Made by a program: the position numbers and the translations under genes. Below are positions 12,994 through 19,722 of a DNA stretch of 60,093 bases, piece by piece (within the stretch, counting starts at the first letter, position 1; each line of letters begins with the position of its first letter). The stretch is from Arcicella rosea (GTDB taxonomy: Bacteria > Bacteroidota > Bacteroidia > Cytophagales > Spirosomataceae): positions 1 to 60,093 of the forward strand of contig NZ_JACHKT010000033.1 in assembly GCF_014204325.1 (NCBI RefSeq), read 5' to 3'. The notes below the pieces were generated by a model. It had not been told where the DNA came from. It worked only from the letters and a program-made list of their open reading frames with translations, and did no database searches.

Positions 12994-14013
12994 TTATACT
13001 GGACTAACTATTTCTTTTCTATTTCTTACTACATCAATGGCTGTAAAAATAGCTTCAAGCATGGATGTTTCTTTGGCTACATTTTTTCCAGCAATATCAT
13101 AAGCCGTTCCGTGGTCTGGCGAAGTACGCACTATCGAAAGTCCTGCGGTAAAATTGACTCCATTTTCAAAAGAAATGTATTTGAACGGAATCAATCCTTG
13201 GTCGTGATACATTGCTAAAACAGCGTCATAATGTTTAAATTGAGCATTTCCGAAAAATCCATCCGCAGGAAAAGGTCCAAAAACAAGATTCCCTTTCTTT
13301 CTGAATTGTTCCAAAACTGGTGAGATTACTTCTTTTTCTTCGTTGCCTAATAAGCCATCTTCTCCAGCGTGTGGATTCAATCCTAACACAGCAATTTTTG
13401 GTTTTTGAATGCCAAAATCTTCTGTTAGAGAAGTAAACATCAAATTCAGTTTTTGGGTAATTTTCTCCTGAGTAATCGCTCCACGAACTCTCCCCAAAGG
13501 AATATGTCCCGTTACTACGCCAACTCTCAACACATCAGAAACCAAGAACATCAAAGATTCTTTGGAATCAAACGCTTCAGTAAAGTATTCAGTATGCCCA
13601 GGGAACTTGAATTCTTCAGATTGGATATTATTTTTATTGATAGGAGCCGTTACGATAGCATGAATATGCCCAGCTTTTAAATCTTCCGTTGCTTTTTGTA
13701 AACAAGCCAAAGCCGCAACACCCGCTTCTGGTGTTATTTTTCCCGGTGTTACTTCGGTTTGTTTATCATCCCAACAAGTAATAACGTTGGTAAATTTTGG
13801 ATTGATTTGGTCGATACTCTGAATACTGTGCAAGGTCCAATCTTTTAATTCAAGTGCTTTTCTATAATAAGTAAATACTCTTTGTGAACCATAGATAACT
13901 GGAGTACAAAGTTTTAAGATTCGATTACTTGTTAATGCCTTTAAAATTACTTCTGGTCCAATACCATTATAATCGCCTAAAGTTATTCCTATGATTGGTT
14001 TTTGTTGTTCCAT
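12994..14013 (-). CDS. pdxA: 4-hydroxythreonine-4-phosphate dehydrogenase
   Basis: 339 residues; NAD-dependent oxidation in the DXP-dependent pyridoxal phosphate pathway. Family landmarks: GITLGDYNGIGPEV at the N-terminus, ITAPINK (TAPINKNNI), the metal-binding His in FPGHTEYF, GLNPHAGEDG, and YHDQGLIPFK. All zinc-ligand His residues are in place. No other pdx gene is adjacent. The start MEQQKPIIGITLGD is the natural one. Confidence 0.95.
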   Translation of the reverse strand: MEQQKPIIGITLGDYNGIGPEVILKALTSNRILKLCTPVIYGSQRVFTYYRKALELKDWTLHSIQSIDQINPKFTNVITCWDDKQTEVTPGKITPEAGVAALACLQKATEDLKAGHIHAIVTAPINKNNIQSEEFKFPGHTEYFTEAFDSKESLMFLVSDVLRVGVVTGHIPLGRVRGAITQEKITQKLNLMFTSLTEDFGIQKPKIAVLGLNPHAGEDGLLGNEEKEVISPVLEQFRKKGNLVFGPFPADGFFGNAQFKHYDAVLAMYHDQGLIPFKYISFENGVNFTAGLSIVRTSPDHGTAYDIAGKNVAKETSMLEAIFTAIDVVRNRKEIVSPV

Positions 14014-15810: not shown

Positions 15811-18800
15811 ATGGCTCAGCCTTACGTCCAAAAAATCAACAGTCTCTTGGTAGCCAATCGTGGTGAGATTGCTATCCGAATCATGCGTGCTGCCTCTGAA
15901 CTAGGTATTCGCACCGTTGCCGTTTATACGTTTGAAGACCGTTATTCTCTTCACCGATACAAAGCCGATGAAGCCTATCAAATCGGGAAAGATGATGAGC
16001 CTTTAAAACCTTATTTGGATATTGAAGGGATTATTAAACTCTGTAAAGAGAAGAAAATTGATGCGATTCATCCAGGTTATGGCTTCCTTTCTGAGAACGT
16101 TACACTTGCTCGCCGTTGTCGTGAAGAAGGTATCAAATTCATTGGGCCATCTCCAGAAGCAATGGATGCTTTGGGTGATAAAGTAGCTGCCAAAGTAGCT
16201 GCTAGAACCGCACAAGTACCAATGATTGAAGACTCTAAAGAAGATTTAATCAATTATGATATTGCTCTTTCGGAAGCACGTAAAATCGGCTTCCCAGTAA
16301 TGGTAAAAGCTGCTGCGGGTGGTGGTGGAAGAGGAATGCGTGTAGTGCGTGAAGAAGAATCTTTAGAAAAAGCATTCAGCGAAGCCAAAAACGAAGCTAA
16401 AAATGCTTTTGGTGACGATACTATTTTCATTGAAAAATTTATCGATCAACCAAAACATATTGAAGTACAATTATTAGGTGACCAACACGGAAATTTAGTT
16501 CACCTTTATGAACGTGACTGTTCAGTACAAAGACGTTTCCAAAAAGTAGTTGAAGTTGCACCTTCTTTTGGTTTGAAAGAAGAAACTCGTCAGAAATTGT
16601 ATCAATACGCTTTATCAATTGGTAAAGCAGTAAATTATTATAATGCTGGTACGGTAGAATTCTTGGTGGATAAAGACGAAAATATTTTCTTTATCGAAGT
16701 AAACCCACGTATTCAAGTAGAGCATACCATTACGGAAGAAGTAACAGGAATTGACATCGTTAGAACGCAAATTCTAATTGCTCAAAACTATAAACTTTCA
16801 GACAGTAATATCTTCATTTTAAAACAAGAAGATATTCCTTTGAATGGTTATGCAATTCAATGCCGTATCACAACTGAAGACCCCGCTAATGGCTTCAAGC
16901 CAGATTTCGGAACGATTATCGCTTACCGAAATGCAGCAGGTTTTGGCATTCGTTTAGATGAAGGTTCATCATATCCGGGTGTAAAAATTTCACCTTACTT
17001 TGACTCGATGTTGGTGAAAGTATCGGCTCGTGGTAGAACTTTAAAAGGAGCTTCACAACGTCTTTCTCGTGCTTTGACTGAGTTCCGTATTCGTGGTGTA
17101 AAAACGAATATTCCATTCTTGAAAAATGTAATTACGCACCCTGTTTTCCAACAAGGAAAATGCGTAGTTCAATTCATTGATTCACATCCAGAATTATTTG
17201 ATTTCAAAACATCAAGAGACCGCTCTACGAAAGTACTTCGTTATTTGGGAGATGTTGTAGTAAATGGGAATCCTGATGTGAAAGTTAAAAACGAACGTAC
17301 TTTCCGTACGCCAATTGTTCCTGCATTCGACCCTTTTGCAGCATATCCAGCAGGTAATAAACAATTATTAGAGTCGATGGGTGCTGACAAATTCACTCAG
17401 TACATCAAAGAACAAAAGCAAATTCTTTATACAGATACTACTTTCAGAGATGGTCACCAATCTTTATTAGCAACCCGTGTGCGTACCAAAGACATGGTAG
17501 CTGTAGCAGAAAGCTATGCTAAAAACTTCCCACAATTGTTCTCTATGGAAGTTTGGGGCGGAGCTACTTTCGACGTTGCGATGCGTTTCTTGAACGAATC
17601 TCCTTGGAAACGTTTGGAAGAATTCCGTGAAGCAATGCCGAATATGCTTTTGCAAATGCTATTCCGTGGTTCAAATGCGGTAGGTTATTCAGCATATCCA
17701 GATAATTTAATTGAGAAATTCGTAGAAAAATCTGCCGAAACAGGTATTGATGTCTTCCGTATTTTCGACTCGCTAAACTGGGTTGATGCGATGAAAGTAT
17801 CTATCAAAGCCGTTCGTGAGCGTACAAACGCTATCGCAGAAGCTTCTATTTGTTATACAGGAGATATATTTACCAATGAAAAATATTCATTGCAGTATTA
17901 CTTAGATATGGCTCGTCAGTTGGAAGACGAAGGAGCACACATCTTAGTAATAAAAGACATGGCGGGTTTACTTAGACCTTACCAAGCACAATTATTAGTA
18001 ACAGAATTGAAGAAAGCTCTTTCAATTCCTCTACACTTACACACACATGATACGGCTTCGATTCAGGCGGCTACTTATTTAAAAGCTATTGAAGCGGGTG
18101 TTGATATTATAGATTGTTCTTTGGGTTCAATGTCTGGCTTGACGGCTCAACCAAACTTCAATTCAATAGTGGCAATGATGCAAGGAAACGAACGTGAATG
18201 TGAGATGAACTTGCCTTTATTGAACCAGTACTCAAACTATTGGGAAGATGTTCGTCAGATGTATTATCCATTTGAATCTGAATTGAAAGCAGGAACTGCC
18301 GAAGTGTATGATAATGAAATTCCGGGTGGACAATATACTAACCTACGTGGACAAGCCATTGCTTTGGGTGTAGGCGATAAGTTTGAGTTGATGAAGAGCA
18401 ATTACGTTGAAGCCAACAAATTATTTGGCGATATTGTAAAAGTAACGCCTTCTTCAAAAGTAGTTGGCGATATGGCTATCTTTATGACAGCGAACTCTTT
18501 AACTGCTGAGGACGTATATGCAAAAGGGGCAACGCTTTCTTTCCCAGAGTCTGTAAAAGATTTCTTCAAAGGTGGTTTAGGGCAGCCTTATGGTGGTTTC
18601 CCGAAACAATTACAAGAAATTATCTTGAAAGGCGAAACGGCATTGACTACTCGTCCGAACGATACAATTCCTCCAATTGATTTCGGACAAGATTTTGAAG
18701 ATTTCAAAGCGAAATTCCCAGAAAACGAGCAAGGAGAATTGGATTATCTTTCATACAAAATGTATCCGAAAGTATATGAAGATTACTACAAAGCACAACA

Positions 18801-19668
18801 AATCTATGGGGAAGTATCGTTGATTCCGACGCCAGCATTCTTGTATGGTTTGAAATCTGACGAAGAAATCTTGATTACAATTGACGAAGGAAAAACGATT
18901 ATTGTAAAATATTTATACAAATCTGAGCCTGATGAATCTGGACTTCGTACTATTACTTTTGAATTGAACGGACAAGCTCGTAGAATTAAAGTATTAGACA
19001 AAAATATCAAAGTAGAGAGAGCTCAACACGCTAAAGCTTCATCAAAAGGCGATATTGGTGCACCTTTGCAAGGTCGTTTAAGTAGAATTTTGGTAAAACC
19101 GGGCGATGAAGTAAAGAAAAATGCTCCATTGTATATCATTGAAGCCATGAAAATGGAATCAATCGTTTCTTCTCCATTTGAAGGTATTGTTTCAAGAGTT
19201 GTATTGAATGAAGGAACAGTTGTTGAACAAGAAGACTTAGTATTGGCAGTTGAAGAAGCTACTTTACCAGAACCAGATAAAGAAGAATTTTTATTCGTTT
19301 ACGGAACGCTTAGAAAAGACTTCGGCAACGAATTACATAAATTGATTACTCGTAATTCTGAATTTATCGGAATGGCTACTTATCAAGGGAAAATGTATAA
19401 TATCGGTGAATATCCCGGCATTGTAGCTTCTGATGATACTGATAGCAAAGTAATTGGAGAATTATATAAACTTTCAAATTCATTAAGATTAATTAGAATC
19501 TTGGATGAATATGAAGAATTCTATCCAGAAAATATTGCTGAAAGTATTTTTGTAAGAAATGCCGTTTCTGTAAATATCGAAGGAACAACTTATGAAGCAT
19601 ACTCATATCTGTACAATCGTCCAACAGACGGTTTACCAGAAATAACAAGCGGTGATTTTTTAGCCTAA
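15811..19668 (+). CDS. pyc: Pyruvate carboxylase with a C-terminal gamma-glutamylcyclotransferase-like domain
   Basis: 1285 residues in one unbroken frame, about 135 more than usual pyruvate carboxylases. Biotin carboxylase domain about 10-460 (AAAGGGGRGMR ATP loop; VEVNPRIQVEHT region). Carboxyltransferase from about 535 (DTTFRDGHQSLLATR), then the PYC C-terminal domain. The biotinyl domain has EAMKMES with biotin Lys1114. After a roughly ten-residue linker comes FVYGTLRKDFGNELH (Tyr1164-Gly-Thr-Leu-Arg1168), then YQGKMYNIGEYPGIV, VIGELYKL and LDEYEEFYPEN, the classic GGCT/AIG2-like layout. Glu1235 matches the catalytic Glu. It replenishes oxaloacetate from pyruvate; what the added domain does is unknown. 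A hairpin follows. Confidence 0.95.
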   Translation: MAQPYVQKINSLLVANRGEIAIRIMRAASELGIRTVAVYTFEDRYSLHRYKADEAYQIGKDDEPLKPYLDIEGIIKLCKEKKIDAIHPGYGFLSENVTLARRCREEGIKFIGPSPEAMDALGDKVAAKVAARTAQVPMIEDSKEDLINYDIALSEARKIGFPVMVKAAAGGGGRGMRVVREEESLEKAFSEAKNEAKNAFGDDTIFIEKFIDQPKHIEVQLLGDQHGNLVHLYERDCSVQRRFQKVVEVAPSFGLKEETRQKLYQYALSIGKAVNYYNAGTVEFLVDKDENIFFIEVNPRIQVEHTITEEVTGIDIVRTQILIAQNYKLSDSNIFILKQEDIPLNGYAIQCRITTEDPANGFKPDFGTIIAYRNAAGFGIRLDEGSSYPGVKISPYFDSMLVKVSARGRTLKGASQRLSRALTEFRIRGVKTNIPFLKNVITHPVFQQGKCVVQFIDSHPELFDFKTSRDRSTKVLRYLGDVVVNGNPDVKVKNERTFRTPIVPAFDPFAAYPAGNKQLLESMGADKFTQYIKEQKQILYTDTTFRDGHQSLLATRVRTKDMVAVAESYAKNFPQLFSMEVWGGATFDVAMRFLNESPWKRLEEFREAMPNMLLQMLFRGSNAVGYSAYPDNLIEKFVEKSAETGIDVFRIFDSLNWVDAMKVSIKAVRERTNAIAEASICYTGDIFTNEKYSLQYYLDMARQLEDEGAHILVIKDMAGLLRPYQAQLLVTELKKALSIPLHLHTHDTASIQAATYLKAIEAGVDIIDCSLGSMSGLTAQPNFNSIVAMMQGNERECEMNLPLLNQYSNYWEDVRQMYYPFESELKAGTAEVYDNEIPGGQYTNLRGQAIALGVGDKFELMKSNYVEANKLFGDIVKVTPSSKVVGDMAIFMTANSLTAEDVYAKGATLSFPESVKDFFKGGLGQPYGGFPKQLQEIILKGETALTTRPNDTIPPIDFGQDFEDFKAKFPENEQGELDYLSYKMYPKVYEDYYKAQQIYGEVSLIPTPAFLYGLKSDEEILITIDEGKTIIVKYLYKSEPDESGLRTITFELNGQARRIKVLDKNIKVERAQHAKASSKGDIGAPLQGRLSRILVKPGDEVKKNAPLYIIEAMKMESIVSSPFEGIVSRVVLNEGTVVEQEDLVLAVEEATLPEPDKEEFLFVYGTLRKDFGNELHKLITRNSEFIGMATYQGKMYNIGEYPGIVASDDTDSKVIGELYKLSNSLRLIRILDEYEEFYPENIAESIFVRNAVSVNIEGTTYEAYSYLYNRPTDGLPEITSGDFLA

Positions 19669-19692: not shown

Positions 19693-19722
19693 GAAGAGCC
19701 TTGGAGAAATTCAAGGCTCTTC
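19693..19722 (+). terminator. Hairpin after pyruvate carboxylase
   Basis: GAAGAGCCTTG / CAAGGCTCTTC, 11-bp stem, weak T-tract. Confidence 0.55.

Follow-up and report, generated by a model that had tools for sequence, protein, structure and literature searches.

The fusion gene

The DNA analyzed here, referred to as the window, is a stretch of 60,093 nucleotides from Arcicella rosea (contig NZ_JACHKT010000033.1 of assembly GCF_014204325.1). Positions 15811-19668 of the forward strand form a single open reading frame (ORF) of 1285 amino acids, starting with ATG and encoding a protein with a calculated mass of 144.6 kDa, in which a complete pyruvate carboxylase (PYC) continues in frame into a small domain of the gamma-glutamylamine cyclotransferase (GGACT) family. 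This pyc-ggact fusion gene was first proposed from the letters of the window alone (the sequence-only reading), as a complete PYC running into a tail of the gamma-glutamyl cyclotransferase (GGCT) type, and the ORF, the Pfam matches and the NCBIfam matches agree on it. The motifs singled out in that reading, Lys1114, YGTLR at 1164-1168, a YxGxMYNIGEYPG segment and Glu1235 of LDEYEE, are present and correctly numbered.

The PYC part consists of residues 1-1149 (15811-19257, + strand) and contains the biotin carboxylase (BC), carboxyltransferase (CT), PYC_OADA and biotin carboxyl carrier protein (BCCP) regions. Two curated equivalog models match it over their full length, at residues 7-1148 of the fusion protein: NF009554 with 1696.4 bits (cut-off 965) and TIGR01235 with 1626.5 bits (cut-off 1114.45). 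The lysine of the EAMKM motif, Lys1114 (codon 19150-19152, +), is the biotin acceptor in this family. It is kept in all 45 full-length fused genes, that is, the window's gene and 44 of 52 fused loci from a species-wide scan (below), the other eight being cut, frameshifted or partial. Since the 12 unfused PYC relatives whose proteins were read are only 1144-1168 amino acids long, the tail is, judged by these lengths, joined at the natural C-terminus of PYC. Compared with single-chain pyruvate carboxylase (TIGR01235 / NF009554), the fusion protein has the same full-length match and the same EAMKM lysine but about 135 extra residues beyond PYC. These comprise a linker at about residues 1150-1159 (ATLPEPDKEE; 19258-19287, +), which shows no insertion or deletion and always retains LPEP in the 45 genes, and a GGACT/AIG2-like domain at residues 1160-1285 (19288-19665, +), defined by Pfam, AlphaFold and Foldseek.

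Family, fold and active site of the tail

The Pfam profile PF06094 (GGACT) matches residues 1161-1284 over nearly its whole length, with 72.4 bits against a gathering score of 22.8 and an E-value of 6e-20 in the full protein or 1e-21 for the tail alone. ChaC (PF04752) and AIG2_2 (PF13772) gave no Pfam match to the protein at E up to 1. Thus, of the two profiles that the sequence-only reading had named for the tail, PF06094 matched and PF13772 did not. That reading had compared the tail with human GGCT; the family matched is that of GGACT (A2LD1).

Among solved structures, the best sequence matches of the tail are bacterial YtfP (1xhs) and YkqA (2qik), followed by mouse GGACT; the AIG2-like chains 3jub and 3jud were also reached by a profile that included standalone relatives. 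The YtfP and YkqA chains (121 and 285 residues) differ in having no carboxylase, and in the YtfP alignment the LDEYE position lacks the Glu that the fused tail retains.

Two AlphaFold models were made. With a 26-row alignment the tail was modelled (block means of 72-94 in the predicted local distance difference test, pLDDT) and the biotin domain was not. Foldseek placed mouse GGACT (1vkb) first for this model, with an E-value of 7.7e-6 and a template modelling (TM) score of 0.64 by target length, so that the predicted structure bears out the GGCT-type fold. PDB entry 9i09, part of a Paulinella chromatophore transit peptide, was also among the Foldseek matches of this model. Should the tail be the matching part of the model, the GGACT fold may have been reused outside enzymes; no paper on this was found. 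A second alignment was extended to 58 rows with standalone GGACT proteins and the C-termini of unfused PYC. It gave block means of 87-98 pLDDT for the biotin and GGACT domains and 74 for the linker, with a predicted TM score (pTM) of 0.56. All 50 Foldseek matches listed for the second model were biotin-dependent carboxylases, and it therefore contributed nothing further on the fold of the tail.

The active site of mouse GGACT, as given in PMC2954230, consists of Tyr7, Gly8, Thr9, Leu10, Ile50, Glu82, Tyr88, Tyr115 and Tyr143. In the profile alignment to 1vkb, with chain numbering offset by 12 such that YGTL falls at 7-10, the YGTL of the YGTLR substrate loop (residues 1164-1168; 19300-19314, +) lies on mouse residues 7-10. 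Glu1235 (codon 19513-19515, +) lies on the Glu of LDDFED, which corresponds to Glu82 of that site. The alignments to the mouse chain end before Tyr115, and Y1266 as its counterpart is a guess. Y1164, G1165, T1166, L1167, R1168, E1235 and Y1266 are unchanged in all 45 full-length fused genes, and, R1168 apart, the 29 standalone proteins share them without exception. The conservation of these residues argues for a working cyclotransferase.

GGACT in the strict sense (A2LD1) has Tyr at mouse position 88, in the segment SMYQR, where the 17 fused sequences compared all have Phe (F1247). Since nine of the 29 standalone proteins also have Phe, the other 20 having Tyr, this position is variable and no bar to PF06094. 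On these alignments the tail is filed under PF06094, not under the mammalian gamma-glutamylamine cyclotransferase A2LD1. It shares with A2LD1 (1vkb) the fold, the YGTL loop and the catalytic Glu; it differs in this Phe and in being covalently joined to PYC.

Distribution of the fusion

The C-terminal 286 residues were used to search 222 genomes of the window's family. The fusion was matched as a single piece in 55 of these, the match beginning at a contig edge in one (G085) and ending at one in another (G006). By genus label it is present in 8/8 genomes of the window's genus (g1), 37/38 of g13 and 5/5 of g2, and once each in g6, g10, g11, g29 and g56. PYC without the tail was found in 74 genomes, and 93, some of them incomplete, gave no PYC match (for example genera g52, g28, g23 and g55). 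The frame is open for at least 1280 amino acids in 48 of the 55 fused genomes, which argues that the join is not due to chance; in six it runs off the contig end and in one (G001) it is frameshifted.

A wider scan used the alignment of the tail against one genome per species, 84,980 species in all, and the best 80 of 156 loci were examined. In 52 the tail is fused to PYC and in 28 it is not; 51 of the fused calls rest on an ORF of >250 amino acids with a biotin-type motif, and the remaining locus (L102) is cut by its contig. Fused loci occur in Flectobacillus, Arcicella, Pseudarcicella, Aquirufa and Sandaracinomonas, which are all five NCBI genera of the Flectobacillaceae. Further fused records carry the names Cellulophaga sp. 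BC115SP, Spirosoma fluviale (metagenome-assembled genomes), Cytophagaceae and Cytophagales. These fall among the Flectobacillaceae rows in both the PYC and the GGACT tree (below), and their labels are therefore taken as wrong or coarse. The Cellulophaga record (L071) has a tail identical to that of Flectobacillus longus and a PYC adjacent to it in the tree; its name is probably wrong. In Emticicia, of the family Leadbetterellaceae, the GGACT gene stands alone.

Samples of higher ranks were searched as well. Twelve of 390 genomes in the order sample carry the fusion, all from the window's family. In the class sample (295 genomes, 76 with a match) and the phylum sample (395 genomes, 17 matched at a stricter cut-off), it was found only in the window's own genome. 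These three samples overlap, stay within the phylum and cover it in part, so the fusion may also occur elsewhere.

The search across relatives called for in the sequence-only reading thus found the architecture in 55 of 222 family genomes and in named strains of five genera. It also decides the fate of one alternative, a sequencing or assembly artefact that lost a stop codon. With so many genomes, one of which (G069) is a single contig, and with the named strains, the chance of an artefact is negligible, and a sequencing error is ruled out. None of the three findings on which that reading was to be abandoned, no family match, a different fold or a sequencing error, was made.

Origin of the fusion

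PF06094 is present in 213 of the 222 family genomes, mostly once and in 12 of them twice. The 55 fused genomes have a single match apiece, and since the fused tail is itself a PF06094 domain, that match is the tail. One additional match, a fragment, was seen in a single-protein search of G007. In Arcicella aurantiaca DSM 22214 (L106:6187-7260), a 237-base stretch from the 3' end of the fused gene is repeated about 0.6 kb downstream with 94.5% identity. Between the two copies lie a DUF6934 gene and a 45-amino-acid ORF, an arrangement that resembles the insertion of a cassette at the end of the gene.

In the unfused relatives examined, GGACT is a separate gene elsewhere. No PYC lies within 1.5 kb of standalone GGACT at any of 16 loci (some with less flank), no GGACT lies beside any of 12 unfused PYC genes (flanks of about 0.2-2.3 kb), and no PYC was found in eight longer stretches around standalone GGACT, in one of which (L166) the ORF filter does not show the GGACT gene itself. 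Loss of a stop codon between neighboring genes arranged as in present-day relatives was rejected on these counts, although the two genes may have been neighbors in an ancestor.

In the PYC tree, the fused copies lie on one side of a branch (SH-like approximate likelihood ratio test, SH-aLRT, 100) from 12 unfused copies. In the GGACT tree of 86 rows, a branch with SH-aLRT 94 sets the fused tails apart. The latter tree has 128 columns, long branches and outside rows picked by similarity; 13 of the 16 standalone family loci are included, and two of the 13 fall among the outside rows. The topologies fit one fusion event. Independent origins were considered and rejected, as each tree needs only one change.

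One feature of the window's gene appears at odds with a shared history of its two parts. The tail is 73-75% like the Pseudarcicella/Flectobacillus-type tails and only 54-58% like those of its own genus, whereas the PYC part is nearest to its own genus and kin. Unlike the window's tail, the Arcicella-type tails (L106, L113, L115-L118) carry an insertion of two residues before YPAF and sit on a long branch of 0.48. Their PYC parts are close to the window's, suggesting that the Arcicella-type tails changed faster, and the branch of 0.48 can account for the mismatch without any exchange.

The join could have been an accident that became irreversible when the free gene was lost, the tail acting like free GGACT and its position being irrelevant. 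The different places of the unfused PYC and GGACT genes agree with this, and GGACT does get joined to unrelated partners: a 693-amino-acid ORF of Jejuia sp. UBA6058 (L124:5992-8073) combines GGACT (residues 6-129) with a pseudouridine synthase domain (499-646), and parts matching this fusion adjoin in different frames in Algibacter (L127). The Jejuia fusion resembles the present one in linking GGACT to an unrelated enzyme in Bacteroidota; it differs in that GGACT is N-terminal, the partner is a pseudouridine synthase and the record is a single one. The invariant linker length and the LPEP motif, however, hint at a constraint on the join, and a purely accidental fusion seems rather unlikely.

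Selection on the tail

The synonymous and nonsynonymous rates were compared in pairs that were unsaturated and had a tail dN (nonsynonymous divergence) above 0. In 54 of 990 fused pairs, the tail has a median dN/dS of 0.067 and PYC one of 0.017; the value is 0.088 for standalone GGACT (12 of 78 pairs). Purifying selection acts on the tail about as strongly as on a free GGACT, and the domain is not in decay. Production of a free GGACT from an internal start was also considered. No Met occurs between the biotin site and the GGACT domain in any of the 45 genes, the window having two TTG codons there, and this route was rejected.

Glutamate and 5-oxoproline metabolism

Besides a scaffold role or a repair step, for or against which the evidence does not speak, the sequence-only reading suggested metabolic coupling to glutamate synthesis. 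The 5-oxoproline made by the tail would be recycled to glutamate alongside the oxaloacetate supplied by PYC. Ten fused and 15 unfused genomes were tested for the relevant families. PF03746, which we take to be the 5-oxoprolinase of the PxpA type, is absent from all ten fused genomes and present in 4/15 unfused. Hydantoinase_B, presumably a marker of the OPLAH-type 5-oxoprolinase, is present in 6/10 fused, but it is equally common in the unfused set (11/15). Both are missing in four of the ten fused genomes (two of g13, one of g56 and one of g10). The gamma-glutamyl transpeptidase family is found in 9/10 fused and 15/15 unfused genomes. The transpeptidase and the six Hydantoinase_B genomes speak for the coupling; the patchy 5-oxoprolinase markers speak against it, and so do the relatives that keep GGACT apart from PYC and the 74 family genomes whose PYC lacks the tail. 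Of the 93 family genomes that gave no PYC match, 88 have PF06094, hence the purpose of the tail need not involve PYC. Recycling of 5-oxoproline does not appear to be general in the fused genomes, and metabolic coupling, unsupported as a general explanation, is improbable.

A probable bifunctional protein and its alternatives

PYC forms tetramers in which the biotin carrier domain swings. The explanation that we favor, with moderate confidence, is a bifunctional protein in which GGACT was joined once to the C-terminus of PYC and the tail is still an active enzyme. The steps would be as follows. In an ancestor of the Flectobacillaceae, a single event attached a GGACT gene in frame to the end of PYC through a short linker, and the former free gene would have been lost afterwards. 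The PYC part would go on making oxaloacetate from pyruvate by the usual carboxylation. The tail on the biotin carrier domain would cyclize a gamma-glutamyl compound to 5-oxoproline and free the amine, as the conserved site suggests. Because the tail is attached at the end of the biotin carrier domain, four GGACT domains would be displayed per PYC tetramer. The likely gain would be constant, matched production of a small enzyme and its placing on a large tetramer, not substrate channelling. Relatives keep GGACT whether or not PYC shows, and this retention together with the patchy recycling favors matched production and placement over metabolic channelling.

Three observations weigh against the bifunctional protein. 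First, the tail departs from most standalone proteins at two residues: F1247, which aligns with mouse Tyr88, and Y1264, which is Tyr in 16/17 fused and 0/29 standalone proteins (26/29 have Trp). By these differences, the specificity or activity of the tail may have shifted. Second, given that the linker never changes in length, the position of the tail could be important; a real coupling to PYC would then be favored. Third, the tail evolves faster than PYC.

Regulation of PYC is the main rival to matched production and placement. Here the GGACT domain would bind or process a glutamate-derived metabolite and alter PYC, for example by restraining the swing of the biotin carrier. The indel-free linker to the carrier domain, the fused-typical residues at or near the site and the lack of a second, free GGACT in any fused genome by PF06094 search are consistent with it. 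Set against these, the site residues look catalytic rather than merely binding, relatives keep GGACT without showing PYC, and the model gives no firm placing of the BCCP and GGACT domains relative to each other (pTM 0.56). We know of no regulation of PYC by such a domain, and this alternative is unlikely, if less so than the others discussed. A more daring version, which we regard as a long shot, is that GGACT acts in cis. It would sense or remove gamma-glutamyl groups, even from the biotin-accepting Lys or a neighbor, and thereby control or repair the biotin carrier. If so, the protein would be a clade-specific, self-maintaining or metabolite-gated pyruvate carboxylase.

Genomic surroundings

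A hairpin with a 13-pair stem, a possible terminator, lies 24 bases past the stop codon of the fusion gene (19693-19722, +). It hints, no more, that the fusion gene is transcribed separately from the next gene. The region has three terminator-like sites against 2.4 in shuffled sequences (standard deviation 1.8), which is not above chance, and the hairpin is therefore suggestive only. Upstream of the fusion gene, with a DUF418 gene between, is pdxA of pyridoxal phosphate synthesis (12994-14013, - strand). In 42 of the 52 fused loci, a match to pdxA is likewise found upstream and on the other strand; the window's three downstream genes have no match in these loci.

Significance

No description of a pairing of PYC with GGCT, GGACT or AIG2 was recognizable among the matches listed in the open-licence PubMed Central (PMC) literature, in keeping with the earlier statement that no example was known. 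The text of PMC3199775, on the evolution of carboxylases, does not mention a cyclotransferase or AIG2. The fusion combines two families already known, in an arrangement that is new and characteristic of a single clade; it may already be on display in automatic domain databases.

The fusion gives a central anaplerotic enzyme a new and stable domain architecture, found in every NCBI-listed genus of the Flectobacillaceae, and it holds the only GGACT found by PF06094 in the genomes that carry it. It may serve as a genomic marker of the Flectobacillaceae group. Since both parts come from known enzyme families and named strains of Aquirufa, Flectobacillus and Arcicella carry it, the fusion offers a direct handle on the function of bacterial GGACT proteins.

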